Shown piece after piece: positions 46,586-62,723 of a stretch of 64,000 nt of DNA; the stretch's first letter is position 1, and each line of letters begins with the position of its first letter. Position numbers and translations under genes: made by a program. The notes beneath the pieces are model-generated. The model was not told the DNA's origin and made no database searches. It worked only from the letters and a program-made list of their open reading frames with translations. Source of the DNA: Asticcacaulis sp. AND118 (GTDB taxonomy: Bacteria; Pseudomonadota; Alphaproteobacteria; Caulobacterales; Caulobacteraceae); contig NZ_CP084911.1 in assembly GCF_020535245.1 (NCBI RefSeq), positions 845,001 to 909,000 of the forward strand, written 5' to 3'.

Positions 46586-46670
46586 GCGGGCATGGCGGAA
46601 TCGGTAGACGCAACGGACTTAAAATCCGTCAGGGAAACCTATGCCGGTTCGAGTCCGGCTGCCCGTACCA
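46586..46670 (+). tRNA. tRNA-Leu (anticodon UAA)
   Basis: 85 bases. Acceptor arm GCGGGCA / TGCCCGT (one G-U), D arm with GGCGGAATCGGTAGACGC, anticodon arm ACGGA-CTTAAAA-TCCGT with TAA anticodon, a long variable arm as in class II tRNA, T-arm GCCGGTTCGAGTCCGGC, and an encoded ACCA end. Reads UUA/UUG codons. No integrase or repeated 3' end nearby. Confidence 0.95.
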
Positions 46671-49086: not shown

Positions 49087-50040
49087 CTATTGACCGACCA
49101 TGTAAAAGTAAAGGGGAATGCCTATCAGGATGTTGAAGGGAAAAGTCAGGGCGAGGCTCATCGGGATATAGATCGCCTGTTGCGCCTGCGGCAATGCCAC
49201 GCGCATGGCCGCTGGAACAGCGATATAAGATGCTGAGGCGCACAGGACTGTAAACAGGAAGGCCGTTCCATCTTCCAGGCCGATGGCCCGACTGGCGATT
49301 ACGCCGAGAAGGGCGCCTATCAGGGGCATATATATCCCGAAAGCCAGCAAGCTTAACGAGAACTGCCTGACGTGTCTCAGGTTCCGACTGACGGTCAGCC
49401 CCATGTCGAGCAGAAACAGGCAAAGGACGCCCTGAAACGGATCAATGAAAAGGGCGCTGACGCCGGTCAGCGTCTCCGATCCAAGAACCGCGCCGACGAG
49501 CAGGGAGCCGATGAGCAACAGGACCGCGCCGTTGGTGGCCGTCTCCGCAAGGAGGTGGCTGAACCGTTTCTGCGCGCTCTTTCCGCGCGCCAGCATCAGG
49601 CCGGAAACGATCGCCGGGGCCTCCATCATAGCGACTACCGCGACGATATAGCCTGCGAAGGCGACCTGATTCAGCTCCAGATAGCTGACGGCGGTGGCGA
49701 AGGTGACGATGCTGACCGACCCATAATGTGCTGCCGTTGCAGCCGCCGTCGGCCTGTCGAGCGAGGTGGTGAACTTCAAAAGCGCATAGCCGATCACGGG
49801 CTGGATCAGTCCAAACAGGACCCCGACGACGAGGGTTGCGGCGAATTCGAGCGTCATTGCGCCTTCGGCCCTGAGCGCCATACCGCCCTTGAGGCCTATA
49901 GCCATCATCAGGAAGATCGACAGGAACTGACTGATGCTGCGTGGCACGCTCAGGTTGGAGCGAACAAGACCCGCAAACAGGCCAAGACCGAAAAACAAAA
50001 CCGGGGCCGAAACCATGCCCTGAACCAAGGAAAAATTCAT
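49087..50040 (-). CDS. SbtA-type sodium-dependent bicarbonate transporter family permease
   Basis: 317 aa from ATG 50040 (GGAGG 5 bases upstream). About ten membrane helices in the SbtA (DUF897) arrangement: GLKGGMALRAEG, HYGSVSIVTFATAVSYLE, MEAPAIVSGLML and CASASYIAVPAAMRVALP, the paired crossover-helix sequences of the family. Cyanobacterial members import bicarbonate with sodium; proteobacterial substrates are less certain. Divergent from a LysR regulator that probably controls it. Confidence 0.87.
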   Translation of the reverse strand: MNFSLVQGMVSAPVLFFGLGLFAGLVRSNLSVPRSISQFLSIFLMMAIGLKGGMALRAEGAMTLEFAATLVVGVLFGLIQPVIGYALLKFTTSLDRPTAAATAAHYGSVSIVTFATAVSYLELNQVAFAGYIVAVVAMMEAPAIVSGLMLARGKSAQKRFSHLLAETATNGAVLLLIGSLLVGAVLGSETLTGVSALFIDPFQGVLCLFLLDMGLTVSRNLRHVRQFSLSLLAFGIYMPLIGALLGVIASRAIGLEDGTAFLFTVLCASASYIAVPAAMRVALPQAQQAIYIPMSLALTFPFNILIGIPLYFYMVGQ

Positions 50041-50131
50041 CTTCACCTCCACTGGAGTGGCGGGTAGCGGAGTTGAAGTTATTCGTAAAATGGAATATTC
50101 TTATATTAATTATTCGATTTATAGATAACCG
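50041..50131. promoter_or_regulatory. Divergent SbtA / LysR promoter region
   Basis: 91 bases, AT-rich core (AATATTCTTATATTAATTAT) between the two start codons. LysR proteins bind T-N11-A sites in such regions; an imperfect repeat TTATTCGTAAAA / ATTATTCGATTTATAGATAA is visible, but the exact box is not fixed. Confidence 0.45.
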
Positions 50132-51010
50132 ATGTCATTCAATACCGACAGTCAGACGCTGAAAGCCTTCATGGCGCTGGCCGAAACCCTGAACTTCACC
50201 CGCGCCGCCGATAAGGTGGGCCGCAGCCAGTCCGCCTTGAGCATGCAGATACGGCGCTTGGAGGACAGTGTCGGGCATGCCCTGTTTGAGCGGACGCAGC
50301 GCTATGTGAAGCTGACACATGAGGGGGAGATATTTTTGGGCTATGCCCGATCGATTCTGGACCTCCAGCGCGAAGCCTATTCACAATTGAACGCGCCGGA
50401 AATTGAGGGCGAGATCCGCCTTGGCACGCCAGAGGATTTTGCCACCCATTATCTCCCCGATGTTCTTGCCGCGTTTCGCACCCTGCATCCGCGCGTGCTG
50501 CTGAACGTTAGTTGCGACCTGACGCTGAACCTCATCAAGGCGTTCGAGCAGGGCCAGCACGATATTGTCTTGGTCAAACGCGACCCGCAGACGGTGGATG
50601 GCGGTGTTCGGGTGTGGCGTGAACCGCTGGTCTGGGTGACGGGAGAGACATTGAGGGGAGCGTCTGGCGGAGTCAATGACAAGGCGCTTACATTGGCCCT
50701 GTCCCCGCCGCCCTGTATCTACCGGGCCCGCGCTCTGGCGGCGCTGGCGCGTCAGGGCCGTAGCTGGCGCATAGGCTATACCAGCCCCAGCCTGACGGGC
50801 ACCCTGGCGGCAGTGCGATCGGGGCTGGGGATCAGCGTTCTGCCCGCCAATATGATACCCAAGGGCGTCAGGGTGGTCGATCATGGGCTGGGCTTGCCTG
50901 ATCTGGCTGATGCCGAGATCGCCATGTTGACCGCCGGCGGCCTGGGGCCGGCGGGCACTATGCTGGCGCGGCACATCATCGACAGCCTCGACCAGATGCG
51001 GGGGCATTAA
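50132..51010 (+). CDS. LysR-family transcriptional regulator
   Basis: 292 aa. N-terminal winged HTH (residues 5-65; LKAFMALAETLNFTRAADKV, SQSALSMQIRRLEDSVG, LFERTQRYVKLTHEG) and a C-terminal periplasmic-binding-like co-inducer domain (about 90-285). Transcribed away from the SbtA-type permease, the classic arrangement of a LysR regulator and its target. The co-inducer is unknown; in CbbR/CcmR-type regulators it is a carbon metabolite. Confidence 0.88.
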   Translation: MSFNTDSQTLKAFMALAETLNFTRAADKVGRSQSALSMQIRRLEDSVGHALFERTQRYVKLTHEGEIFLGYARSILDLQREAYSQLNAPEIEGEIRLGTPEDFATHYLPDVLAAFRTLHPRVLLNVSCDLTLNLIKAFEQGQHDIVLVKRDPQTVDGGVRVWREPLVWVTGETLRGASGGVNDKALTLALSPPPCIYRARALAALARQGRSWRIGYTSPSLTGTLAAVRSGLGISVLPANMIPKGVRVVDHGLGLPDLADAEIAMLTAGGLGPAGTMLARHIIDSLDQMRGH

Positions 51011-51140: not shown

Positions 51141-51788
51141 TCACAACGGACGAGTGCTTTCGATCAGCGCTGCAAACGCGATAGCCGGCGTGTAAACGCC
51201 GACCATGTAATACGGCTGATCCATAGGACAGTGCAGGGCATAGGCAGCGGCAGCAAGGGTGGCAAAGGCGATCGCCGTCATCAGCCTCAGTACCATCGGG
51301 TGGGAGGACGCGGTGAATTTCAGCCACACCGGATCCGCAAGCCTCATGCCCAGAAAGGTGGCGGCGAGGAGGGTGCCCGCACACAGGTTCGCCTGACCGA
51401 AACCGGGAGCAAAGGTCGCGGCCCAGCCCTCACGGGCGACCTCCAACGACGTGAGGCCCAATTGCCCAAGCGCAACGACCGGCAGCGGGGCCAGATCGCT
51501 CCAGTGTAAACGGCCTTCTGGTCTGGAGAGATCGACGACGACATGCAATGCGGAAAAACCGACCCACGCCCACATCAGAGGCTTCAGTATAGCTGTAGGC
51601 GGTATCCAGGCGCCGTCCTCAGCGCTGCGAAAAATATCTGGCCGTATCCCGTAGATGCTGAAAACAACTGCTAAGATCAATCCAGCGACGACGACGCTCA
51701 GAAGCAGCAGCCGCAGGGGATTGAGCGGCGTAACGGGGCGAAGATCGATTATGAGCCGCTCGATCGGGTCTCGCTGCGGCTCTACCAT
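51141..51788 (-). CDS. NrsF-type (DUF1109) anti-sigma factor, second copy
   Basis: 215 aa from ATG 51788, overlapping the previous gene by 7 bases; the longer ORF upstream is in the shadow of that gene. Six membrane helices of the DUF1109 fold. Cysteines at about 136 (QANLCAGTL) and 187 (YALHCPMDQPYY) match the two conserved Cys that NrsF of Caulobacter uses for sensing. Paralogue of the gene directly upstream, with full membrane fold and both cysteines kept, so probably functional. Last gene of the sigF/bufferin operon. Confidence 0.8.
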   Translation of the reverse strand: MVEPQRDPIERLIIDLRPVTPLNPLRLLLLSVVVAGLILAVVFSIYGIRPDIFRSAEDGAWIPPTAILKPLMWAWVGFSALHVVVDLSRPEGRLHWSDLAPLPVVALGQLGLTSLEVAREGWAATFAPGFGQANLCAGTLLAATFLGMRLADPVWLKFTASSHPMVLRLMTAIAFATLAAAAYALHCPMDQPYYMVGVYTPAIAFAALIESTRPL

Positions 51789-52456
51789 CTGAAGAGCCAG
51801 CGTCCGGCAAACCCGCCCAGAACAGCAGCCACCAGGTTGGGCGCCAGATAGATCAGCAGCAGATAGATCGGCGCGTCGTGGCCGCAATGCAGGCTGTAGG
51901 CGACGGTCATCAGTGCCGAGGCGGCAAACGCGCTCAGGGCGCCGAACAGGGAGGGATTGCCCGGCGCGGCGCGGCGCAACCACAGGAACCAACCGGCGCC
52001 GAGCCCGCCGAGCCCGCCGCTGAGAACGGTCAGGAAGCAGACCGAGGCGCCCCCCTTGAGGTCCGCCATGGCGGCCTGCCAGCCATGGACGACCAGTTCC
52101 GCGCCCGTCAGCGCCGCCAGTCCGCCGACCCCCAGCGCCAGAAGGGCGGTTTGAGGTTTATCTAACCGACCTTCCGGACGCGCCATCCCCTTCACCAGTC
52201 CCAGGGCCAATGCTGCCACGGCCATGAAAAACCCGGTCTTGGCGTAGGCGGACAGATTCTCATGCACGCGCCATTCGCCGACCAGCACGCGCATTTCGGG
52301 CCGTGCGCCATAGGCGGCCACGATAAGGACACTGGCCACGGTCAGGAACAGGGCCGCCCATAAGATCAGTCCGCGCGGGCTCAGGACGCTTACCGGGGCG
52401 GTCGCGCGGCTCAGATCCTCGATCAGGCGGTCGGTTTCAGGCTTACTCATCTTCAT
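51782..52456 (-). CDS. nrsF: NrsF-type (DUF1109) transmembrane anti-sigma factor
   Basis: 224 aa, start overlapping the sigF stop by 14 bases. Short cytoplasmic N-terminus that should bind the sigma factor (ETDRLIEDLSRATAPVSVLS), then six helices. Cysteines near 140 (GASVCFLTVL) and 191 (YSLHCGHDAPIYLLL), spaced as in Caulobacter NrsF, where they mediate release of SigF by heavy metals and oxidants. Second of two tandem NrsF genes' upstream member. Confidence 0.85.
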   Translation of the reverse strand: MKMSKPETDRLIEDLSRATAPVSVLSPRGLILWAALFLTVASVLIVAAYGARPEMRVLVGEWRVHENLSAYAKTGFFMAVAALALGLVKGMARPEGRLDKPQTALLALGVGGLAALTGAELVVHGWQAAMADLKGGASVCFLTVLSGGLGGLGAGWFLWLRRAAPGNPSLFGALSAFAASALMTVAYSLHCGHDAPIYLLLIYLAPNLVAAVLGGFAGRWLFRW

Positions 52457-53003
52457 ACACTTTCCGGGGCGTGCCGACGGCTTCCCGTAACTTTCTCAAT
52501 CCTCTGTGGATGATGACCTTCACGGCGGCCACCGATTTGCCCGTCAGGCGCGAGACGTCGTCGAGGCTAAGCTCCTCCACCTTGTGCAGGCGGATGACAC
52601 GGGCCTGTTCGACGGGCAGTTGCGATAAAAGAACCTGCACGTCGCGCCGCGCGATGGCGGCAGGCAGGCCGAGGCTGGCCTCGTCCACCGGTTCATTCTG
52701 TTCATCCAGCTCGACATGCACGTAACGGCCGTGGCGACGAACGTGGTCGATCAGCTTGTGCCGGGCGACCGCCGCGATCCACGGCATGAAGGGCGCGCCG
52801 GCATCGTAGGTATGGCGCTTTTCATGCACGCTGACGAGGGTAATCTGGATCAGATCCTCCGTATCCGGCGATTGCAGGCGCCGGCGAAAATAGGCCGCCA
52901 GCCACGGACGCAAGGCAGTGAGCAGGGCGCGGTAAGCCTCGGCGTCGCCGGTTTGCGCGGCGCGCATCTGTTCCTGCCAAAGATCCGGCTTTCCAAGGCT
53001 CAT
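52443..53003 (-). CDS. sigF: ECF sigma factor, SigF-like (ECF16 type)
   Basis: 186 aa. Sigma region 2 (about 20-90; SPDTEDLIQITLVSVHEKRH, FMPWIAAVARHKLIDHVRR) and region 4 (about 125-175; LLSQLPVEQARVIRLHKVEE, DVSRLTGKSVAAVKVIIHRG). Genes of this type pair with DUF1109 anti-sigma factors, here following directly. ATGA overlap with bufC. Expected to recognise the GTAACC-N16-CGTATC promoters found before both bufferin operons, including its own. Recalled Caulobacter work links SigF to chromate, cadmium, copper and oxidative stress. Confidence 0.88.
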   Translation of the reverse strand: MSLGKPDLWQEQMRAAQTGDAEAYRALLTALRPWLAAYFRRRLQSPDTEDLIQITLVSVHEKRHTYDAGAPFMPWIAAVARHKLIDHVRRHGRYVHVELDEQNEPVDEASLGLPAAIARRDVQVLLSQLPVEQARVIRLHKVEELSLDDVSRLTGKSVAAVKVIIHRGLRKLREAVGTPRKVYEDE

Positions 53004-53776
53004 GCGTCAGACAACGGTGATGCCGCGGCCTCTGTCAAGTCCAGGTCGAATCCTGTCACCAGCCCCTCTGCGATCCAGCCCCCCAACCATTCACCCACCC
53101 TGTGCGTGGGGTCTGTGTCAGGGTGGTCGCGCGCCAGGGTTTCGCACGCGGCGGCGAACGGCAGACCAGTGTTGAGGGCGCGCACCAGATGATATTCGTC
53201 CGCATCAAGGGTGCGAAAGCGCGGTTCGAGCGCCAGCTTCCATACGCACAGTCCCGTCAGTTCCTGGTCGGTAAAGTAGACGATGTCCGGCGGCGTGTCC
53301 CCGCGCGACAGGGCCCGCCACAGGGCGGCGGCGTTGGTGCGGACAGCCCGATGCCGCAGCGCCGGGTTCAGGCGCAAGCGCACGGCTTCCCAGTTGGTAA
53401 TCGTCGCCAGAGCGGCCGGATCGAGCGTTTCCGCGTCTGGGGCGGCGAAGGCCTGACGCAGTTCGGCGTCCAGCCACGCCAGTTCGGCAATTTCGGGATC
53501 GTGGGGGAAGCGCACATCGAGAAAGGCCGGGAAGTCGAGCCCATAGGCATCGAGCGTCCAGTTCGTGGATGGATGCTGCTCGATATAGGCGCGGGCTTCG
53601 GCATGGAAGGCGTCGTCACCCAGCCAGGTCCATACCCGCTCATAGGTTTCCGAAAGCGCGCCCAGAAGACGCGCGCGATAGGCGCGATGATAGACGCGCC
53701 GACCTTCCTCAGCCCCCGGGGGCGCGGTTTCAAGCAACATGTCCAGAAAGCTTCGCTGTGCGACGAACAGACTCAT
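53000..53776 (-). CDS. bufC: BufC-type protein (DUF2063), MNIO partner
   Basis: 258 aa from ATG 53776, overlapping the bufB stop by ATGA. DUF2063 N-terminal helical bundle (MSLFVAQRSFLDMLLETA, RVYHRAYRARLLGALSETY) and a C-terminal wHTH-like domain. In MNIO RiPP systems this protein binds the precursor leader and presents it to the iron oxidase. Last maturation gene before sigF. Confidence 0.85.
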   Translation of the reverse strand: MSLFVAQRSFLDMLLETAPPGAEEGRRVYHRAYRARLLGALSETYERVWTWLGDDAFHAEARAYIEQHPSTNWTLDAYGLDFPAFLDVRFPHDPEIAELAWLDAELRQAFAAPDAETLDPAALATITNWEAVRLRLNPALRHRAVRTNAAALWRALSRGDTPPDIVYFTDQELTGLCVWKLALEPRFRTLDADEYHLVRALNTGLPFAAACETLARDHPDTDPTHRVGEWLGGWIAEGLVTGFDLDLTEAAASPLSDA

Positions 53777-54606
53777 GCGGCCTCCGGGGCGCGGCTCAGA
53801 CGCCGGGCGATGTCGAGTTCGGCCAGCAGTTCCGGCAGGGGCGGGATGTCGTCGTCGCGCTCGATCATGACGGCGGCGTGGCGCAGGCGCGGCGCGGCCT
53901 CGGCATAGAGGGCCCATACGCCTTGCGGCACCGGCGCATCATGCGTATCGATCAGCAGGGTCTCGCCTTGCGAATGTCCGGCCAGATGCACCTGACGCAC
54001 GCGCTCCAGCGGCAGACCGTTAAGATAGTTGCGCGCCGAAAAGCCGTGATTGTGGGCGCTGACATAGACGTTGTTCAGGTCGAGCAGCAGATAGCAACCT
54101 GTGCGGCGGCAGACCTCGGACAAAAAAGCCCATTCGCTGTAGGCGTCTTCGGCAAAGGTGACGTAGGTCGAGGGGTTTTCAATGAGGAGCGGGCGTTTCA
54201 GAAACGTCTGTACACGGTCGATATGACGGCAAACCGTCGTCAATGCCTCTTCGGTCAGGGGAAGGGGCAAAAGGTCGTGACTGTTACGGCCGCCGATGCC
54301 CGTCCAGCACAGGTGGTCCGACACCCAGACGGGCTCGATGCGCTCGGTCAGCGCCTTGAGCCGCGTCAGATAGTCCGGTCCCGGTCCTTCCGGCGACCCC
54401 AGCGACATGGACACGCCGTGCATCAGAACCGGATAGAGGGCCCGTACCTGTTCGAGGACGCGCAAGGGCCGCCCGCCATCGATCATGAAATTTTCCGAGA
54501 TGATCTCGAAAAAGTCGATCGCCGGCGGGGCGGCCAGAATGGCTTCGTAATGCGAGGGCCTCAGGCCGAGGCCGAAGCCCGCAAAGGGCGGAAGGAAAGG
54601 GGGCAT
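53773..54606 (-). CDS. bufB: BufB-type MNIO enzyme (DUF692)
   Basis: 277 aa from ATG 54606, where the family's usual PPFAGFGLGLRPSHYEAIL begins; a TTG 9 codons up is less likely. TIM-barrel multinuclear non-haem iron oxidase: likely iron ligands His63 (LMHGVSMSLGS), His98 (SDHLCW), Glu143 (LLIENPSTYV), Asp176 and Asn179 (LLDLNNVYVS), His207 and His211 (VHLAGHSQ), Asp220 and His222 (DTHDAPV), Glu249 (IERDDD). Relatives convert precursor cysteines to 5-thiooxazole. Works on the BufA-type peptide encoded just upstream. Confidence 0.9.
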   Translation of the reverse strand: MPPFLPPFAGFGLGLRPSHYEAILAAPPAIDFFEIISENFMIDGGRPLRVLEQVRALYPVLMHGVSMSLGSPEGPGPDYLTRLKALTERIEPVWVSDHLCWTGIGGRNSHDLLPLPLTEEALTTVCRHIDRVQTFLKRPLLIENPSTYVTFAEDAYSEWAFLSEVCRRTGCYLLLDLNNVYVSAHNHGFSARNYLNGLPLERVRQVHLAGHSQGETLLIDTHDAPVPQGVWALYAEAAPRLRHAAVMIERDDDIPPLPELLAELDIARRLSRAPEAA

Positions 54607-54666
54607 GAACAGGTCCGGATAGGGCCGACGCAATGCCGGCCCCGTGTTTCATTTAGTTGGGGCAGT

Positions 54667-54951
54667 TCAGGCGAGGTCGCCGATCACGCCGCCCTTGGCC
54701 AGGCATTCCTTGGCCTTTACGGCCTTGAAGCCATGACCCTTGCAGGTGTTCTGGCCCTTGCATTCATGCATGGTGGTGGCGCAGTCGGCCGTGCCTTTGC
54801 AGCTATTGATGCCGTAGCAGTGCACGATGTCGTCGGCGGCGACGGCCGCGCCCTTGCTGCCCGCGGGTGCAGTGGCGGCGCTGGCGATGCTGGCGGCGGC
54901 CATCAGGGCGGCGGCGGAAGCGATAAGGGCGCCGGTTTTGACGGTGATCAT
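54667..54951 (-). CDS. bufA2: BufA2-type bufferin precursor, six-cysteine secreted RiPP
   Basis: 94 aa. Signal-like leader (TGALIASAAALMAAASIASA) remains part of the precursor in this family. Mature region: Cys45, 51, 57, 64, 70 and 83 in HCYGINSCKG, ADCATT, ECKGQNTCKGHGF and KECLAKGG. The repeated CxGxNxCKG module twice is the BufA2 pattern. Probably exported to the periplasm as a copper-binding modified peptide. First gene of the operon bufA2-bufB-bufC-sigF-nrsF-nrsF2; its promoter is the left SigF-type one. Confidence 0.88.
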   Translation of the reverse strand: MITVKTGALIASAAALMAAASIASAATAPAGSKGAAVAADDIVHCYGINSCKGTADCATTMHECKGQNTCKGHGFKAVKAKECLAKGGVIGDLA

Positions 54952-54998
54952 GGGGTTAGCCTCTCTGAGATAGGTGCGGTGCCGGTGTGGCAGGGAGG

Positions 54999-55026
54999 GA
55001 TACGGCGCCGGCGCAAGCGAGGTTAC
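54999..55026 (-). promoter_or_regulatory. SigF-type promoter for the bufA2 operon
   Basis: On the minus strand GTAACC (55021-55026), a 16-base spacer, and CGTATC (54999-55004). The -10 lies 48 bases from the bufA2 start. Same boxes and same spacing as the divergent promoter. Confidence 0.85.
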
Positions 55027-55060
55027 AGGCCGCGATGAATTTTTTCTGCCGGCTGGGTTT

Positions 55061-55088
55061 GTAACCTTTGTCGTCGGCGGCGCGTATC
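55061..55088 (+). promoter_or_regulatory. SigF-type promoter for the bufA1 operon
   Basis: GTAACC (55061-55066), a 16-base spacer, CGTATC (55083-55088). The -10 lies 46 bases before the bufA1 start. The two -35 boxes are 34 bases apart and face outward. Confidence 0.85.
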
Positions 55089-55133
55089 TCCTGACAGGGC
55101 GCGATACTGCGTCTGTTTGCCAAGGAGAACCGT

Positions 55134-55421
55134 ATGTCTGTTTCCCATTCCGGGCTGGCTATTGCCGCCGCCCTGTCGCTCGCCGCCGGTGCGGCCATGG
55201 CCGCCGACGCCAAAATGCCCGCCAAGGCGCCCTCTGCCAAGGAAGCGTGCTACGGCGTTGCCAAGGCCGGGCAGAACGATTGCAAGGCCGGGCCGGGCAC
55301 GAGTTGTGCGGGCAGTTCCAAGGTCGATTACGACGGTAAGGCGTTCAAGCTGGTCGACAAGGGCACCTGCGTGACGATCAAAACGCCCAGGGGCAACGGT
55401 TCGCTGACGCCGAAGGCCTGA
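55134..55421 (+). CDS. bufA1: BufA1-type bufferin precursor, four-cysteine secreted RiPP
   Basis: 95 aa; AAGGAGA 6 bases before the ATG. Signal-like leader ([20 protein letters not shown]). Mature part with Cys39, 50, 58 and 79: [43 protein letters not shown]. Matches DUF2282/BufA1 precursors of MNIO RiPPs, in which some cysteines become thiooxazoles that chelate copper. First gene of bufA1-bufB1-bufC1-doxX. Confidence 0.88.
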
Positions 55422-55426
55422 GCGCG

Positions 55427-56269
55427 ATGATCGGGGCAGGTCTGGGTGCGGGCTTGGGGCTTAAGCTCGCGCATTTTGACGAAGCGTCCCGCGACCGCCG
55501 CAATGGCCTTTGGTTCGAGGTGCATCCCGAAAACTACATGGTCGACGGCGGCCCGCGTCTGGCTGGGCTTGAGCGCGTGCGGGAGTGCCATCCCCTGTCG
55601 TTGCACGGGGTGGGGCTGTCTCTGGGCGGTCCCGATCCGCTCGATAAAGGGCATCTGGCACGGTTCAGGGCGCTGATCGATCGCTTTGAGCCTTGCCTTG
55701 TTTCCGAGCACCTGGCCTGGTCGCGCTTCGGTGGGGCCAGCGTGCCGGACCTGCTGCCGGTGCTGCGCAGCCGGGAAGCGCTGGCGCGCATTGCCGGACG
55801 CATCGATGCTGCCCAGACCGCATTGGGGCGCACGCTGCTGATCGAGAATCCGGCCCATTATCTAAATCTGCGCGGCCATGAGTACGATGAGGCCGATTTC
55901 CTGAGGGAACTGGTCCGGCGCACCGGTTGCGGTTTGTTGGTCGATCTCAACAATATTGTCGTCAGTGTGCGCAATATCGGCACGGATGCTTATGCCTATC
56001 TAAGGGCCATTCCGCCGGAGGCCGTGGGTGAAATCCACATTGCGGGACACAGTGAAGACCCCGTTATGGGCGCGAACCTGCTGATCGACAGCCACGACCG
56101 CCCGGTCGGCGACGCTGTATGGTCGCTCCTGACGGCAGCGCTGAACCTTTGGGGGCCGAAGCCGGTCCTGATCGAGCGCGACGGCGACGTGCCGGCCTAT
56201 GCCGCGCTGATCGCCGAGCGCGAACGCGCCCAGGCCGGGCTCGACAGCGCGAAGGTTTTGACGGCATGA
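55427..56269 (+). CDS. bufB1: BufB1-type MNIO enzyme (DUF692), second copy
   Basis: 280 aa, 5 bases after bufA1. Same fold and iron ligands as the other DUF692 gene: His60 (LHGVGLSLGG), EHLAW, LLIENPAHYL, LVDLNNIVVSV, IHIAGHSEDP, DSHDRPV, LIERDGDVP. The two enzymes differ clearly outside these motifs, as expected if each serves its own precursor. ATGA overlap with the next gene. Confidence 0.9.
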   Translation: MIGAGLGAGLGLKLAHFDEASRDRRNGLWFEVHPENYMVDGGPRLAGLERVRECHPLSLHGVGLSLGGPDPLDKGHLARFRALIDRFEPCLVSEHLAWSRFGGASVPDLLPVLRSREALARIAGRIDAAQTALGRTLLIENPAHYLNLRGHEYDEADFLRELVRRTGCGLLVDLNNIVVSVRNIGTDAYAYLRAIPPEAVGEIHIAGHSEDPVMGANLLIDSHDRPVGDAVWSLLTAALNLWGPKPVLIERDGDVPAYAALIAERERAQAGLDSAKVLTA

Positions 56270-57036
56270 CGGATTTTCACTCGGCCTTTGTTCGGGCGCT
56301 TGGGGGCGAGGACGACGCGCTGGCCGAATGGCTGGCCCCGTCCGACCGCCCGAAGCTGGCCGTCTATCGCAACACCATCGCGTCCGGACTGAGCGAGGCG
56401 CTGGAAGCGGCGTTTCCCAGTGTGGCAGCGGCCGTAGGGCCGGAAAATTTCAGCGGTCTGGCGTTTAGCTTCGGGCGGGACAACCGCCCGGAGAACCCGT
56501 GCCTGCACGACTATGGCAAAGGTTTTGCCGACTGGCTCGACCAACAACGCGATCTGGAGGACATGGGCTGGCTGGGCGATCTGGCGCGGCTCGACCGGCT
56601 TCGCTTGGAGGTTGTGAACGCGGATGACGAAGCGGCGTCGCCGGCGCAGCTATTTGCGGCCTTGTCGCCTGACGCGCTGAACGCGGCGCGTGCAAGGCTC
56701 GTCGCTTCCGCCCGGCTTATTCGCTTTGATGCCACACTGCTCGCTGTCTGGCAGGGACTGATCGACGGTGAGACATACCCTCTCGAACGCCAGGCGCGGC
56801 CCGAAGCCCTGCTGGTTCGACGCGTCGGACACGAGGTGGAAATGCAACGGCTCGACGATGCCAGTCACGCCTTTCTGAGCGCCTGCGTCGAGGGTTCGGC
56901 TCTGGGCGATGCGGCGCTGGCCGCCCTGACCCTTTTACCCACAACCGACATCGCCGCCCTGTTCGGTGAGGTGCTCGGTCTGAACATTCTTACACTGAAA
57001 ACCGAGGAAACCGAATATGGCCAAAATGCTGACTGA
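56266..57036 (+). CDS. bufC1: BufC1-type protein (DUF2063), second copy
   Basis: 256 aa from ATG 56266 (ATGA overlap with bufB1; the longer ORF upstream is a shadow). DUF2063 helical start (MTDFHSAFVRALGGEDDALA, KLAVYRNTIASGLSEALEAA) and C-terminal domain ending ILTLKTEETEYG. Same role as the other BufC: leader-binding partner of the MNIO. Overlaps the DoxX start by 20 bases. Confidence 0.85.
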   Translation: MTDFHSAFVRALGGEDDALAEWLAPSDRPKLAVYRNTIASGLSEALEAAFPSVAAAVGPENFSGLAFSFGRDNRPENPCLHDYGKGFADWLDQQRDLEDMGWLGDLARLDRLRLEVVNADDEAASPAQLFAALSPDALNAARARLVASARLIRFDATLLAVWQGLIDGETYPLERQARPEALLVRRVGHEVEMQRLDDASHAFLSACVEGSALGDAALAALTLLPTTDIAALFGEVLGLNILTLKTEETEYGQNAD

Positions 57037-57457
57037 CTGGATAAATTACCCGGCAAAACTGATGAACCGCCTGCCGGAGGACGTGATCGCGCTGGTCATC
57101 CGGCTGGGCGTGGCGGCGATCTTCTTCACCTCGGCGCGGACCAAGGTCGATGGCCTTCTGCATATCACCGACGGCACCTATGTGCTGTTCGAGACGGAAT
57201 ACGCTCTTCCGCTCGTCCCGTCGCCCATCGCCGCGGTGGCGGCGACCTGGGCCGAGCATGTTTTCTCTGTGCTCCTGGTTTTGGGACTGTTCACGCGCTA
57301 CTCCGCTTTGGCCTTTCTGGTCATGACGGCGGTGATCGAAATATTCGTCTATCCCGACGCCTGGCCGACGCACCTGAGCTGGGCGGGGTTGCTGATCTAT
57401 CTGATCGCCCGAGGGGGTGGGCGCTTCAGCCTTGACCGACGTCTGGGCTGGTTATGA
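57017..57457 (+). CDS. DoxX family membrane protein, bufferin operon
   Basis: 146 aa, four membrane helices (VIRLGVAAIFFTSARTKVDG; ATWAEHVFSVLLVLGLFTRY; ALAFLVMTAVIEIFVYPDAW; SWAGLLIYLIARGG). DoxX proteins are frequent last genes of MNIO clusters and are presumed to pass electrons or control thiol state at the membrane. Overlap with bufC1 indicates translational coupling. Confidence 0.82.
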   Translation: MAKMLTDWINYPAKLMNRLPEDVIALVIRLGVAAIFFTSARTKVDGLLHITDGTYVLFETEYALPLVPSPIAAVAATWAEHVFSVLLVLGLFTRYSALAFLVMTAVIEIFVYPDAWPTHLSWAGLLIYLIARGGGRFSLDRRLGWL

Positions 57458-57570: not shown

Positions 57571-58677
57571 TTAGCGGGCTTCGGGCCAGCCGGCGGAGAT
57601 GATCCTGCGCACCGCCTTTATGTCCGGCGCGTCTTTCCATTTTATGCCGATATCGCGGTGCGCCGCGCCGGGGCCGGTCGAGCCGCTCTCATGGAAGCGC
57701 GAGTCCTGAGGGTGGAAGACGGCGGTTTTGGATCCGTCGCGCGCCGTGCCGTTCATGGTGGTCCAGTGGTCCGGATGGATATGGGCCTCCATGACGCAGT
57801 CGATGAAGGACGCCTGCCCCACAGCATCCGGATCGGCGTAGCGGCCGTCGGCGAAGGTGGTGGTCGGATGCCACGGACGCCCCAGCGCGACGGACCCGTC
57901 CGGTACGCCGGCTTCGCGGGTCAGGTGTGAGCGGTAGACGACGATGCCGACGGGCTGGCTTAGCGGCGTCGAGGGGGCCAGCAGGAAGGAATGGAACTCG
58001 CCGGCGGCCAGCGCCGCACCGCGATTGCGGGTGCGAATTTCGCTTTTCTCGATCAGGAGCTGACCGTTGCCGAAGATGAAGTCGATATTGCCGGCAATCA
58101 GGCTGTCGCGGATCAGGGCGCGCCTGCCGTTGGCGAACAGGGTGTCCTGATAGCCGATCAACTCGGCGCGACGGATCAGCACCCGGTCGCTGTCGATGTC
58201 GAGGAGGACGGCGACGCCTTGCGAATTGCCGATCTTCCTGGGATCACCGTCGGGCAGGGCGTCGTTCGACAGATAGTCGAAGGTGTTTTCGACCTTGATC
58301 CCTTCAATCGTGACGTGGTCGGCATTGACGGTCAGGGTCGCCGAGCCGGGCGTGCCCCAGTTGCGGCGGTGATATTTGCCCGCCGTCTCGGCGACGGCGT
58401 CGAAATGCAGGCGCGTGCGGTCCGGGCCAGCCCCGCGCAGGCGGGTCTTGTCGCGGCTGATCGTCACCTTTTCGTAGTAATCGCCCGCCGCGACATCAAT
58501 GACGACCCAGCCTTCGCCCTTCTCATTCTGAGCGGCGTCGAGCGCGGCCTGCACGCTGGCGAAACAGGCTTTGCGCGCCCCGCAGTCCGGACTGACGCTG
58601 AGCCGGGTATCGGCGGCAGCGGGCAGGGCGGTGGTGGTGAGCAGCACGGCGACACAAGCGAAGAAGCGGAAGGACAT
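57571..58677 (-). CDS. Pectinesterase, family CE8
   Basis: 368 aa, signal peptide ending ALPAAAD. Right-handed beta-helix. Catalytic motifs intact: GYQDTLFA (near 176), GNIDFIFGNG with the nucleophile Asp (near 196) and LGRPWHP with the Arg (near 269). Removes methyl esters from homogalacturonan, making it accessible to pectate lyases such as the PL10 and PL1 proteins elsewhere in the window. Eleven bases downstream of the esterase gene. Confidence 0.92.
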   Translation of the reverse strand: MSFRFFACVAVLLTTTALPAAADTRLSVSPDCGARKACFASVQAALDAAQNEKGEGWVVIDVAAGDYYEKVTISRDKTRLRGAGPDRTRLHFDAVAETAGKYHRRNWGTPGSATLTVNADHVTIEGIKVENTFDYLSNDALPDGDPRKIGNSQGVAVLLDIDSDRVLIRRAELIGYQDTLFANGRRALIRDSLIAGNIDFIFGNGQLLIEKSEIRTRNRGAALAAGEFHSFLLAPSTPLSQPVGIVVYRSHLTREAGVPDGSVALGRPWHPTTTFADGRYADPDAVGQASFIDCVMEAHIHPDHWTTMNGTARDGSKTAVFHPQDSRFHESGSTGPGAAHRDIGIKWKDAPDIKAVRRIISAGWPEAR

Positions 58678-58688
58678 GCTTTAAAGTC

Positions 58689-59648
58689 TCATTTTTCTGT
58701 CAGAAAACCGTCGATCTGATCGACGATCTGGCTGAACCATGGATCGAACAGCCAGATATCGTGCGGAGCGTTCTCGAAGCGGGCGTAGCGGTAGCGGATG
58801 CCCTGCGCCTTCAGCTTCGTCTCGACGATCTCGCGTCCGGCGGTAAAGCGCGGTATGCCGCTGCTGATGACCAGGGTTGGCGGCGATTGCGGTCCGGCGT
58901 GTTGCGCGGCGCTGGCTTCGCGCCAGCGGTCGGGCACACGCTCCATCGCCCCGCCCAGCCACAATCCGGCAGCGGATTTGTCACCGGCGGCGTTTTCAAA
59001 CTGCAGGGCCAACGGTGTGGTGAAGTCGAGCACGCCGTCGATGTCGATCAGCGCGCTGACCTTCGTATCGTCGGTCGGTGTGCTCTTAAAGAGCGGTGTA
59101 TCCGCCGTATAGGCCAGCAGGGCGGCCATCTGTCCGCCCGAAGACGCGCCGCCGATGGCCAGCTTGTCACGGTCGAAACCGAAGTCTGCCGCCTGCGACT
59201 TGGCCCACACTATGGCGTCGTTAACGTCGATCAGGCCCGCCGGATAGGGCGCTTCGGGCGACAGACGAAACTCCGGCAGCAAGACGGCGTAGCCGCGCTG
59301 GGCCAGACGATTGGCCAGAGCATAGAAGTGAGACTTGCCGCCCGATCGCCAGCCGCCGCCGTGGACCAGCACGATGCCCTGGCCCGTGCGGCGCTCAGCC
59401 AGCGGCAGGAAGACGTCTACATGCAGTTCGCGCTCGCCGACGGTCTTATAGAGGCGGTCGAAAAGAACGGTCTGACCGCTCTGGAATTCCGATACGGGCC
59501 AGCTAATGCCCGCATACTGATCCTTATAGCGGGCGTAGCGCTGCGAGATGGTGTAGCTGTCGTCGACGGGGATAAGGTCGGCGGCCAAGGTCGAGGCCGC
59601 AACGCTGAGGCCCAGGACTGCAGACGCGACGGCAGGGAAAAACCGCAT
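58689..59648 (-). CDS. Secreted alpha/beta-hydrolase esterase
   Basis: 319 aa, signal peptide (AVLGLSVAASTLAADL). HSL/BD-FAE-type esterase: oxyanion block VLVHGGGWRSGGK, nucleophile in GGASSGGQMAAL (near 160), ALIDIDGVLDF, His in FENAPHDIWLF. Between the TonB receptor and the pectinesterase on the same strand, so likely an acetyl- or feruloyl-esterase acting on pectin; the substrate is inferred from context. Confidence 0.83.
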   Translation of the reverse strand: MRFFPAVASAVLGLSVAASTLAADLIPVDDSYTISQRYARYKDQYAGISWPVSEFQSGQTVLFDRLYKTVGERELHVDVFLPLAERRTGQGIVLVHGGGWRSGGKSHFYALANRLAQRGYAVLLPEFRLSPEAPYPAGLIDVNDAIVWAKSQAADFGFDRDKLAIGGASSGGQMAALLAYTADTPLFKSTPTDDTKVSALIDIDGVLDFTTPLALQFENAAGDKSAAGLWLGGAMERVPDRWREASAAQHAGPQSPPTLVISSGIPRFTAGREIVETKLKAQGIRYRYARFENAPHDIWLFDPWFSQIVDQIDGFLTEK

Positions 59649-59705
59649 CCTCTTCCTCCTGTTGTATCGGCCGCCGGCATTACGCGCCGACGGCCTCTCT
59701 TAGGA

Positions 59706-62700
59706 TCAGTACTTGTAACGCAGGCCCACGATCCATTGCGCGCCCGTATGGCTGTATTCGCGCGTCAGATCCATGCTGCCGGTGTCGCCGGTGCCGTAGA
59801 TGCGCTCGACCTCGTCGGTGATGTTGATGCCTTCGAAGGTAAGCGTCAACCGCGGCGTCACATTGTAGAACGAGGCGAAGTCGACATGGGTCGGCCCGTA
59901 TTTGCGCTCCTGCACGTGGCCGTTGCCGCCCGGCTCGCTGATCAAATAGTCGTCGCGCTTGTTGACCGACAGGCGGGCACCGAACGCTTCGGTGTCGTAA
60001 TAGAGGGTCAGGTTGTACGAATTGGGCGAGAGGCCCGTGGAATCGTCCGCCGACACGTGGGTGTAGTTTGAGGCGACGCCGAACTTCGACCATGCGCCCG
60101 GCAGGAAGGTAAAGGGCTGATTGTAGGTGATTTCAAAGCCCTTGACGCTGTTGCCCTGATCGTTGTTGACCGGAATGGTGAAGGTATAGGGCACCTGCGC
60201 CGGATCGGCATTGTAGGACGCGTCGTAGAGCGGATCGGCGTAGATGGCCGGCCAGAAGGACGGGTCGATCATCTGGCTGACCACATCGGTCTTCAGCGAG
60301 CGCACGATGTCCTTGTGGAAGACGGTGAGGGCCAGCAGGCCTTCATCGCCGAAGTACCATTCGACGCCCAGATCGAGGTCGTTGGATTCGTAGGGCTTGA
60401 GCGAGGGGTTGCCGACATTGCCCACCGTGCGGGTGGTGTAGCCGAAGACCGGACCGGCGATGTTCAGCGTGCTCAGGCCCGGACGCGTCATGCTGCGGCC
60501 ATAGGAGGCACGCACCACCAGATCGCTGCGCACGTCGAGGGCGGCGTTGATCGAGGGCAGGTAGTTGTCATAGGAGACATTGACCTCGACCGGCGTGCCG
60601 CTAACCAGCGCCTGCGAGCGGACATTGGTTTTAACGTAGCGCAGGCCCGCATTGGTGCGCAGGCGCATACCGGCAATGTCGTATTCGGCGTTCATTTCGC
60701 CATAGGCGCCGATGGTTTCTTCCCCGACTGTCCAGCCCGCGCCGGCATTGTTGGTGTAGCCCGCAGGGATGATGCCGGCCGCGGCGATGGCGCCGAAATC
60801 GGCCACGCGGAAGGGCAGGAGGCCGGGACCGTCCAGACCGTCGCCGAAGTTGGAGACGGGGAAGGGGCGGGTATAGGCGGAGGGATTGAAGGTCGGCGCG
60901 GCCCCCAGGCCCTCGGCATAGCTGACCTTACGGTCGTTATAGCTCAGGCCCGCCTTGAACGAGACAGTGTCGGCATTATAGGTCGCGTCGAAGCGGGAGG
61001 TGACGTTCTCCTTCTTAACATTATTGATGCGGTTCGACGCCGTCTGGGCGTTGATATAGTTGGCGGCGTTGTTGGGATCGTAGCTGCCGAAGCTGACCTT
61101 CGGCACATAGGGATCGCTGCTGTAGTCGTAGGCGTAGTAGTGCGGCACCGAGCGATAGTAGAAGCGCAGTTCCGTGCGGTCGGCGTCATCGACCGCCGTT
61201 CCGGCCATGGCTTCGAGCGTCAGGCGCTCATTGATCTGGAAGCGGCCGGACAGGACCACCTGATCGAAGGACGATTGCGACTCCTGATGACGGCTTTCGT
61301 ACCAGGAGGTCACGTCGTTGAAGGCGGCGGCGACCAGCGTCTTGCCATCGGCGCCGACCGTAAAGGACAGGGGCGTCTGACCGGTGAAATTACCTGCCGT
61401 ACCGTGGGTCAGCAGCCACTCCATCGAATTATAGCTGTAGCGGTCGTTGTTTAGTTCGGAGTGCAGGACGTCGAGCGTGATCAGGGCGTTTTCCGACGGG
61501 CGGTATTGTAACGAACCGGTCAGGCCGACGCGCTTCTGGTCGTTGCCGAAATAGTCGGCGCGCGGCAGGCGCGGGGCCCACAGGCAGTCGAGCGGATCGC
61601 TGGCCCCGCAGGCATTGGACGGCGTGCCCGTGACGGTCGGGTTGGTGTCGGCCCAGGAATCGCCATTGGCGTGGGGCGAGGTCCAGCGTACGCTCGAATA
61701 GCCTTCCTGATGCACGGTGCGGTTGGAGGCGGCTACCGAAAACAGCGCGCCGAACTTGCCGTCTGCGAAGGTTTTGCTAACCAGCAGGGCCACGCGGGGG
61801 TCCGCCTTCTGGTTCAGCGTGTTGTAGTTGGCCTGCGCCGAGGCGGAGACGGTGAAGTCGTTGCGGAAGTCGAACGGACGCGCCGAATAGAGATTGACCG
61901 TGCCGGCGATGCCGCCTTCTTCGGTCGAGGCCTTTTGCGACTTTTCGATATCGATGCGGTTGAACAGTTCGGAGGCAAAAAGATGGAAGTCGAAGGCGCG
62001 ACCGGCATTGAGGGTTACGCCGCCGCTGTCGAGGCCGTCGCTGCTGGCCGGAACCTCCATGCCGTTCAGCGTGGTGCGGGTGAAGTCCGGCCCGAAGCCG
62101 CGCAGGGTGATGTTGCGTCCTTCACCGCCTTCGCGCGACATGGCCACGCCCGGCACGCGCTGAATGGATTCGGCCAGGTTGAGGTCGGGCATCTTGCCGA
62201 TGTCTTCGGCGACGATGCTTTCGACCGAATTGGCCGCGCGGCGTTTTATGGCGCGTGCCTTGCTGAGCGAGCCGCGAATACCCCTGACGACGACGACCGT
62301 TTCCTCAGGCGCGGCGGCGGGGCTTTCGGATGCCGTGGCGTCCGCCACGTAGGCCGTGCGCGTAATGGGCATGGGATTGTCGCGCGACGTCGGAATCTGT
62401 TCAGCCAGCAGGATGATGCCGTTGGACTGGGTAACCGGTGTCAGATTGGTGCCTGCCAAAAGGCGCGACAGGCCCTCGCGCACCGGCATATTGCCTTGCA
62501 CGGCGGCGGTCTGCTTGCCCTTTACGACCTTTTCCGGCGCCATGAGCTGGATATTGGCCTGCTGGGCGAACTGGGGGATACCCCGTTCGGCGGCCTGCGC
62601 CGGTACGTTGAACGCCTTGACGGCGTCCTGTGCCTGAACAGGCGCGGCGGAGACCATGAGCAACGTACCGCCAGCGAGCAGCAACGGTCCATTGAATGCG

Positions 62701-62723
62701 CGCATGAATGCATTCGTCATCAA
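59706..62723 (-). CDS. TonB-dependent receptor with STN signalling domain
   Basis: 1005 aa. Signal peptide, then an STN (secretin/TonB short N-terminus) domain (about 35-110; VKAFNVPAQAAERGIPQFAQ, NMPVREGLSRLLAGTNLTPV), which marks receptors that also signal to a FecR-type anti-sigma factor. TonB box/plug region VVVVRGIRGSLSKARAIKR, VAEDIGKMPDLNLAESIQRV, RNITLRGFGPDFTRTTLNG; barrel to VGLRYKY at the end. Two genes encoding FecR and FecI types lie directly upstream. Likely ligand: a pectin-derived oligosaccharide, by context. Confidence 0.9.
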   Translation of the reverse strand: MMTNAFMRAFNGPLLLAGGTLLMVSAAPVQAQDAVKAFNVPAQAAERGIPQFAQQANIQLMAPEKVVKGKQTAAVQGNMPVREGLSRLLAGTNLTPVTQSNGIILLAEQIPTSRDNPMPITRTAYVADATASESPAAAPEETVVVVRGIRGSLSKARAIKRRAANSVESIVAEDIGKMPDLNLAESIQRVPGVAMSREGGEGRNITLRGFGPDFTRTTLNGMEVPASSDGLDSGGVTLNAGRAFDFHLFASELFNRIDIEKSQKASTEEGGIAGTVNLYSARPFDFRNDFTVSASAQANYNTLNQKADPRVALLVSKTFADGKFGALFSVAASNRTVHQEGYSSVRWTSPHANGDSWADTNPTVTGTPSNACGASDPLDCLWAPRLPRADYFGNDQKRVGLTGSLQYRPSENALITLDVLHSELNNDRYSYNSMEWLLTHGTAGNFTGQTPLSFTVGADGKTLVAAAFNDVTSWYESRHQESQSSFDQVVLSGRFQINERLTLEAMAGTAVDDADRTELRFYYRSVPHYYAYDYSSDPYVPKVSFGSYDPNNAANYINAQTASNRINNVKKENVTSRFDATYNADTVSFKAGLSYNDRKVSYAEGLGAAPTFNPSAYTRPFPVSNFGDGLDGPGLLPFRVADFGAIAAAGIIPAGYTNNAGAGWTVGEETIGAYGEMNAEYDIAGMRLRTNAGLRYVKTNVRSQALVSGTPVEVNVSYDNYLPSINAALDVRSDLVVRASYGRSMTRPGLSTLNIAGPVFGYTTRTVGNVGNPSLKPYESNDLDLGVEWYFGDEGLLALTVFHKDIVRSLKTDVVSQMIDPSFWPAIYADPLYDASYNADPAQVPYTFTIPVNNDQGNSVKGFEITYNQPFTFLPGAWSKFGVASNYTHVSADDSTGLSPNSYNLTLYYDTEAFGARLSVNKRDDYLISEPGGNGHVQERKYGPTHVDFASFYNVTPRLTLTFEGINITDEVERIYGTGDTGSMDLTREYSHTGAQWIVGLRYKY

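Follow-up and report, generated by a model that had tools for sequence, protein, structure and literature searches.

What controls a block of genes in which two bufferin-type operons stand back to back and one of them runs on into the genes for a sigma factor and two anti-sigma factors? The question is raised by positions 51141-57457 (6.3 kb) of a 64,000-nucleotide (nt) stretch of the genome of Asticcacaulis sp. AND118 (4.05 Mb, four contigs), this whole stretch being called the window below. Bufferins, secreted and modified peptides that bind copper, have only recently been described as a class, and such accounts of their regulation as were found deal with Caulobacter. We consider it likely that the block is a self-contained bufferin regulon of the ECF16/SigF type (ECF, extracytoplasmic function) in which the sigma factor gene, sigF, lies in a closed loop with two brakes. 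The real oddity of the locus is its wiring, as sigF and a tandem pair of nrsF anti-sigma genes sit at the tail of bufA2BC with no sigma box of their own, an arrangement not found described in the portions of the literature covered.

The ten genes of the block form two divergent operons, and all ten proteins exceed a curated Pfam or NCBIfam cut-off for their own domain family. The left operon, on the minus strand, reads bufA2-bufB-bufC-sigF-nrsF1-nrsF2. It opens with a BufA2-type precursor of 94 amino acids and six cysteines, three of them in CKG motifs (54667..54951; the NCBIfam equivalog NF050166, 100.6 bits, cut-off 60), followed by a BufA2-type maturase of the DUF692 family of multinuclear non-haem iron-dependent oxidative enzymes (MNIOs; bufB, 53773..54606; NF050167, 374.4 bits, cut-off 310), which starts at ATG 54606 or possibly at TTG 54633, and by its partner, a DUF2063 protein with a part resembling the recognition element of ribosomally synthesised and post-translationally modified peptides (RiPPs; bufC, 53000..53776; PF09836, 70.8 bits, cut-off 27.2). 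It then continues into an ECF16/SigF-like sigma factor with regions 2 and 4 confirmed (sigF, 52443..53003; PF04542, 49.2 bits, cut-off 24; PF08281, 47.6; TIGR02937, 75.8; all above cut-off), an NrsF/DUF1109 anti-sigma factor (nrsF1, 51782..52456; PF06532, 83.3 bits, cut-off 26.8) and a second, diverged NrsF (nrsF2, 51141..51788, start ATG 51788; PF06532, 44.7 bits). The right operon, on the plus strand, reads bufA1-bufB-bufC-doxX and encodes a DUF2282-type precursor of 95 amino acids with four cysteines (55134..55421; PF10048, 82.9 bits, cut-off 22.4), a DUF692 MNIO (55427..56269; NF050167, 344.2 bits, cut-off 310), a DUF2063 protein (56266..57036; PF09836, 63.9 bits, cut-off 27.2) and the HvfX-like membrane protein DoxX (57017..57457; PF07681, 56.7 bits, cut-off 23.6). 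For three of the block proteins the scan covered an open frame longer than the gene, and their starts are predicted ones. Every junction of the left operon from bufB to nrsF2 is an overlap: 4 nt between bufB and bufC, 4 nt between bufC and sigF, 14 nt (8 nt if the second ATG is used) between sigF and nrsF1, and 7 nt between nrsF1 and nrsF2. A preliminary description of the locus had drawn this architecture, from the paired precursor, DUF692 and DUF2063 genes to the sigma and anti-sigma extension, the terminal doxX and the chain of overlaps, and the family searches that it proposed for BufA1, BufA2, DUF692 and DUF2063 now bear it out, all of them passing their cut-offs. Genome-wide, two MNIO genes and two NrsF genes were found, all of them inside the block.

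Absent from that description was what lies in the 182-nt gap between the operons, namely a matched, divergent pair of exact GTAACC-N16-CGTA boxes, one serving bufA2...nrsF2 (55001..55026, minus strand, 49 nt before the bufA2 ATG) and one serving bufA1...doxX (55061..55086, plus strand, 47 nt before the bufA1 ATG). These are the only two exact copies in the genome. The motif reported for Caulobacter SigF is GTAACC-N16-CGAA (PMC3511200) and the ECF16 consensus is (T/C)GTAAC-N17-CGAA (PMC8315932); the Caulobacter motif with one mismatch allowed matches twice in the central gap, and with up to two mismatches it finds 37 sites across the whole window against 41.6 expected, so loose a pattern being uninformative. 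The sigma factor of the block owes its ECF16/SigF label to its traits, a linked NrsF/DUF1109 protein with two cysteines and a GTAAC-N17-CG box. For the genes, chance is no concern. Given that a reversed-pattern control leads one to expect about two exact matches per genome (1+1 for this genome), the number of boxes by itself proves nothing. What makes the pair non-random is its joint place in one gap, its correct orientation and its conservation in relatives: the same divergent pair is kept in G042, G094, G099, G104 and G124, and in G000, G042 and G104, among the 25 genomes of the genus searched, the gap pair are the sole exact matches in the genome. The sigma/anti-sigma set plausibly controls both operons.

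No such box precedes sigF in the window. How unusual this is was judged in a set of 80 loci, the best 80 of at least 562 confirmed matches ranked by similarity to the window's BufA2-type MNIO, a set biased toward window-like loci whose members are related, such that counts are not independent events. A box stands before bufA2 in 43 of 43 loci with a sigma gene nearby and in 11 of 29 without one (Fisher p 8e-10, for loci that are not independent), and before bufA1 in 42 of 42 and 2 of 13, respectively, loci without a recognised precursor being left out of these counts; with the pattern reversed, matches precede bufA2 in 0 of 72 loci and bufA1 in 4 of 55. Where sigF lies upstream of bufA2 on the same strand it has its own box in 26 of 28 loci, whereas at or beyond the end of an operon it is without one in 16 of 16, comprising 13 loci with sigF after doxX in the BufA1 operon and three in which it follows bufA2BC (in L050 at a distance of some 1.8 kb). 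The one locus with sigF in another position (L063) has no sigF box either. At least three wirings of the sigma/anti-sigma/RiPP module occur: sigF stands ahead of bufA2 and has a box, or it comes late in the BufA1 operon, or it comes late in that of BufA2. The Asticcacaulis wiring places the sigma factor and two brakes behind the BufA2 genes.

Among relatives, this wiring is narrowly held. A family draw of 119 genomes holds NrsF in 68 and BufA2 over cut-off in at least 12; NF050166 misses the control genome of Caulobacter vibrioides, a species for which PMC12452194 names a Buf2, and BufA2 counts made with this model are therefore lower bounds. Nineteen stretches from 17 family genomes, chosen by hand and including the BufA2 loci of 11 genomes other than the window's, were compared, and four genomes occur in both the locus and the genome sets (L044 = G124, L045 = G099, L046 = G010, L060 = G085). 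sigF followed by two tandem nrsF genes behind bufA2BC is found in five of the 16 genus members in the draw (G000, G042, G094, G099, G104) and in a sixth genome, G124; the window's exact wiring thus occurs in six Asticcacaulis genomes and in no other locus examined. Asticcacaulis G114 (L029) shares the divergent bufA1BC-doxX and bufA2BC operons but has a single nrsF, and its sigF-nrsF pair stands apart under its own box, converging on bufC. Other Asticcacaulis loci (L031, L034, L035, L036, L039) have a sigF with its own CGTA box, and in two genomes of other genera (G010, G115) divergent operons are found with the sigma gene a few kilobases off.

In light of this wiring, a circuit can be proposed. 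Periplasmic metal stress, with copper the most likely metal, would cause the membrane proteins NrsF1 and NrsF2 to release SigF, which would read the two divergent GTAACC-N16-CGTA boxes and turn both operons on. Each MNIO-DUF2063 pair would then oxidise its own cysteine-rich Sec-type precursor at cysteine before export, the products being periplasmic metal-chelating peptides, with DoxX joining on one side. Lacking a box of its own, sigF is expected to rely, perhaps wholly, on the very bufA2 promoter that it drives. Because it and the two nrsF genes follow bufA2BC in overlapping frames without a box, expression of the sigma factor, its two brakes and the BufA2 pathway should increase together, giving closed positive feedback with matched negative feedback. 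Such a closed loop would require basal sigma factor. The modification, copper binding and metal sensing in this scheme are what the protein families would predict, and the dynamics of the loop and any division of labour between NrsF1 and NrsF2 are speculation on our part.

Several points weigh against the closed loop, and some of them favour a plainer alternative, an ordinary SigF-bufferin regulon in which sigF and nrsF draw basal expression from another promoter, the order of the genes is neutral and NrsF2 is no more than a redundant duplicate; its chances, in our estimate, fall a little short of even. In C. crescentus the expression of sigF is only partly self-dependent (PMC3511200), and the position of sigF varies widely among relatives, both of which speak for this alternative. 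A promoter within bufC that escaped notice could supply sigF; the one sigma-70-like site found (53217-53189) occurs at chance rate. Against neutral gene order stands the split between boxless sigF genes at operon ends and boxed ones upstream of bufA2, from which two of the 28 upstream loci (L047, L058), showing no sigF box, depart. The boxes of this genus end in CGTA where the published end is CGAA. A wider SigF regulon in the genome was sought and rejected, as the 87 sites with at most one mismatch show no excess over chance (113 for the reversed control), and further targets can consequently be neither ranked nor excluded. The NrsF, HvfC and HvfX proteins fall short of the NCBIfam equivalog cut-offs, NrsF1 scoring 33.9 and NrsF2 giving no match against a cut-off of 300 (NF042994), the two BufC proteins scoring 17.8 and 51.9 against 142 for HvfC, and DoxX scoring 46.3 against 80 for HvfX; these proteins are therefore taken as family members and not as the named equivalogs. 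Finally, copper is not the sole candidate signal: SigF of C. crescentus responds to Cr and Cd as well (PMC3511200), and in the reports covered Bradyrhizobium EcfF responds to H2O2 and Brucella BcrS to HOCl.

That the block answers mainly to oxidants or to metals other than copper, its peptides quenching or chelating something else, is nonetheless improbable in our view. The responses of C. crescentus SigF to Cr and Cd and of ECF16 systems elsewhere to H2O2 and HOCl favour it, but methionine sulfoxide reductase, a usual ECF16 target, seems to lie outside the regulon, the single PF00174 gene found (msrP) having no GTAAC in its 3.46-kb locus; and the members of NF050166 (Buf_6/12Cys) are annotated as copper RiPPs, just as bufferins are reported to sequester copper (PMC12452194). 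Copper would be the signal here by analogy, and it fits because in C. crescentus the SigF regulon is copper-induced and a sigF::Tn5 mutant is copper-sensitive (PMC8224329).

The comparison with C. crescentus also brings out what is different about the window. The SigF-NrsF regulon of that species (CC3252-CC3257, CC2905-CC2907, CC2748; PMC3511200) likewise joins an ECF16 sigma factor, a two-cysteine NrsF and DoxX to two precursor-MNIO-DUF2063 operons with boxes of the GTAACC-N16-CGAA type. Its operons, however, are unlinked, sigF-nrsF have their own promoter, there is one NrsF, and YedY/MsrPQ genes are included, whereas in the window all lies in one block, sigF stands boxless at the bufA2BC tail, there are two NrsF proteins and msrP has no box. 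The captophorins and oxazolin (Fon, Hvf; PMC13097082, PMC13419390) resemble the window in the pairing of an MNIO with a DUF2063 partner and in the conversion of precursor cysteine to thiooxazole, but their precursors are of EGKCG-repeat or other kinds, and the text of these papers that was covered describes no SigF/NrsF set.

Whether the second NrsF is a redundant duplicate, as an ordinary regulon would have it, can be asked of its own history. NrsF1 and NrsF2 are 30% identical, and every one of the 17 NrsF rows aligned, NrsF1 (C140, C191) and NrsF2 included, keeps a sensor-type cysteine pair. NrsF-type anti-sigma factors seem to hold sigma with one cysteine and to sense with the other; work on OsrA suggests that sigma binding requires Cys129, and the signal Cys179 (PMC3420878). 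In a tree of 41 rows, NrsF1 and NrsF2 form separate clades (each 100/100) within the Asticcacaulis NrsF group (98/94), and the NrsF2 clade groups with single-copy Asticcacaulis NrsF (97/96) and sits on a long branch. Three genomes belonging to a different genus of the family (L124-L126 = G077, G096, G101) have a tandem nrsF of independent origin next to their bufA1 operon. The long branch favours redundancy; the retention of NrsF2 in six of six genomes of its clade, with both cysteines in the five aligned, and the renewed origin of a tandem pair argue against it. A bolder form of the closed loop can also be entertained, that of a bistable two-input copper switch, with sigF expressed solely from the bufA2 promoter, the two NrsF proteins forming an AND gate in that both have to be inactivated (by two signals or at two thresholds), and the module rewired in at least three ways. 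We regard this as unlikely.

These considerations have implications beyond the locus. The parts of the module were already known, and what is new is a switch wired into one peptide operon. The genomes compared here offer a natural comparison set, with the same module with or without a separate sigma promoter, in which the effect of the feedback on the metal response is measurable. The version with two anti-sigma factors would likewise test whether paralogous membrane sensors combine signals.

The scheme further supposes that both operons make a modified peptide. Both precursors show a hydrophobic N-terminus and an A-x-A motif, judged by eye, and would on these features be secreted by a Sec-type route. 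The six cysteines of BufA2 (C45, C51, C57, C64, C70, C83) and the four of BufA1 (C39, C50, C58, C79) are invariant in 12 of 12 aligned rows each. MNIO-DUF2063 pairs are reported to oxidise cysteines of Sec-type precursors to copper-binding thiooxazoles (PMC12452194, PMC13097082), and the block probably makes modified copper-binding peptides. The left MNIO has the Protein Data Bank (PDB) relatives 3bww, 8hci, 7fc0, 7dz9 and 7tcr. Through 3bww, the residues essential in HvfB (N175, D242 and H244; PMC13419390) and the catalytic Asp249 of FonB (PMC13097082) were mapped by motif onto both enzymes, and the NN, DTH/DSH and ERD motifs that correspond to them are present in each; conserved His, Asp and Glu columns are likewise present in the alignments of both. 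A loss of iron ligands from the DUF692 enzymes, which the preliminary description had named as fatal to its own reading, finds no support in either enzyme as far as motif mapping goes. An Asp directly after the ERD motif, reported for MNIOs with Cys-Lys substrates, is found in 12 of 12 BufA2-type rows; as a discriminator of the BufA2 type it fails, being also present in four BufA1-type rows (L029, L032, L033, L034). For the left BufC, an AlphaFold2 model (mean predicted local distance difference test score 91.4) matches two PDB entries at E < 0.001 and no others, namely 3dee, the DUF2063 protein NGO1945 of N. gonorrhoeae, and 8hci_A from the TglHI complex; its DUF2063 domain joined to a recognition-element-like fold fits a PME type 1 partner. 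A BufC profile finds no match among PDB sequences at E 0.1.

Might only one of the operons be live, one precursor being a relic whose maturase acts on the other precursor? Where BufA1 lies near a BufA2-type MNIO, no second MNIO occurs within 4.5 kb in 46 of 55 loci of the 80-locus set, and one maturase may therefore serve both precursor classes, which lends this idea some support. In the window, by contrast, both precursors keep the family cysteines, both MNIOs keep the checked residues and both boxes are intact, and we hold a relic operon to be very improbable.

The preliminary description had seen the striking point of the locus in the presence of both precursor classes beside the sigma/anti-sigma set. 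This proved not to be rare. A sigma factor and NrsF lie within 4.5 kb of the MNIO in 45 of the 80 loci, and in 40 of the 80 the sigma factor, NrsF, BufA1 and BufA2 are all within that distance, with a second MNIO in range in five of those 40; Pfam NrsF exceeds its cut-off inside the locus in all ten loci tested. By genus, 38 of the 45 sigma and NrsF loci belong to Sphingomonadales. An even draw of the class (385 genomes, several of them drafts in hundreds of contigs) yielded 21 genomes with BufA2 over cut-off, the window's own included, and among the other 20 NrsF is present in nine and near BufA2 in none. Given 45 of 80 linked loci as against 0 of 20 in the even draw, the linkage is clade-bound, occurring mostly in Sphingomonadales, with Asticcacaulis, some Alphaproteobacteria and two gammaproteobacteria (L063, L113) in addition. 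Within these clades, sigma/NrsF genes are physically tied to BufA2 clusters, contrary to the statement of a published survey that such genes are absent from Buf2 clusters (PMC12452194). The Sphingomonadales loci, arranged as bufA1-doxX / sigF-nrsF-bufA2BC or as nrsF-sigF-doxX-bufA1 / bufA2BC, resemble the window in holding BufA1, BufA2, sigF and nrsF in one block with boxes before bufA1 and bufA2. Unlike the window, they usually have a single NrsF and, within 4.5 kb, a single maturase pair, and their sigF either precedes bufA2, with a box of its own, or stands boxless in the tail of the BufA1 operon. In the gammaproteobacterial loci L063 (Pinirhizobacter) and L113 (Lysobacter) the sigF-nrsF-buf blocks look much like the Sphingomonadales ones, and horizontal transfer may be the reason.

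CGTA-ending boxes were seen in Asticcacaulis, in Sphingomonas azotifigens and trueperi and in Lysobacter changpingensis (L095, L102, L113), CGAA in most other loci, and the ending is usually uniform within one locus. Residue 84 of SigF is Leu in 17 of 17 rows with CGTA; among 45 rows with CGAA it is Met in 21, Trp in 19 and Leu in five. With rows that are related, at least two genomes represented twice (L027/L045, L033/L046) and two loci with mixed boxes excluded, the notion that residue 84 explains the choice between CGTA and CGAA is suggestive only.

The 60-nt spacing between bufA2 and bufB (54607-54666) contains a GC-rich stem-loop of 9 bp with no T-run (54621..54643, minus strand). As a special feature of the window this hairpin was rejected, being weak in the window, where RNA folding alone gives z -1.34 and -0.78, and strong across relatives, in whose gaps a stem-loop is kept in position and not in sequence. 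Of 92 loci sampled, eight gave no gap (no bufA2 recognised on the maturase strand) and eight had gaps outside 25-150 nt; the remaining 76 gaps, among which at least three genomes are represented twice and the gap of L053 includes N, have a mean z of -3.04 against 100 shuffles, with 72 below -1 and 57 below -2. The stem-loop could raise precursor over enzyme. Neither the word hairpin nor the word stem-loop was found in the main text of PMC12452194.

As to the surroundings of the block, copper or other metal genes were sought in its immediate flanks and found in none of the five flanking proteins scanned (LysR, the Sbt_1 transporter, the pectinesterase, the esterase-like protein and one without a match). 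To the left, at 49087-51010, a LysR regulator gene diverges from a gene of the Sbt_1 type (bicarbonate transporter family). To the right, at 57571-62723 on the minus strand, a pectinesterase, an esterase-like hydrolase and a large TonB-receptor-like open reading frame, the receptor named by eye, stand in a row. The sole Rfam match at gathering threshold within the window is a tRNA gene at 46586-46667.

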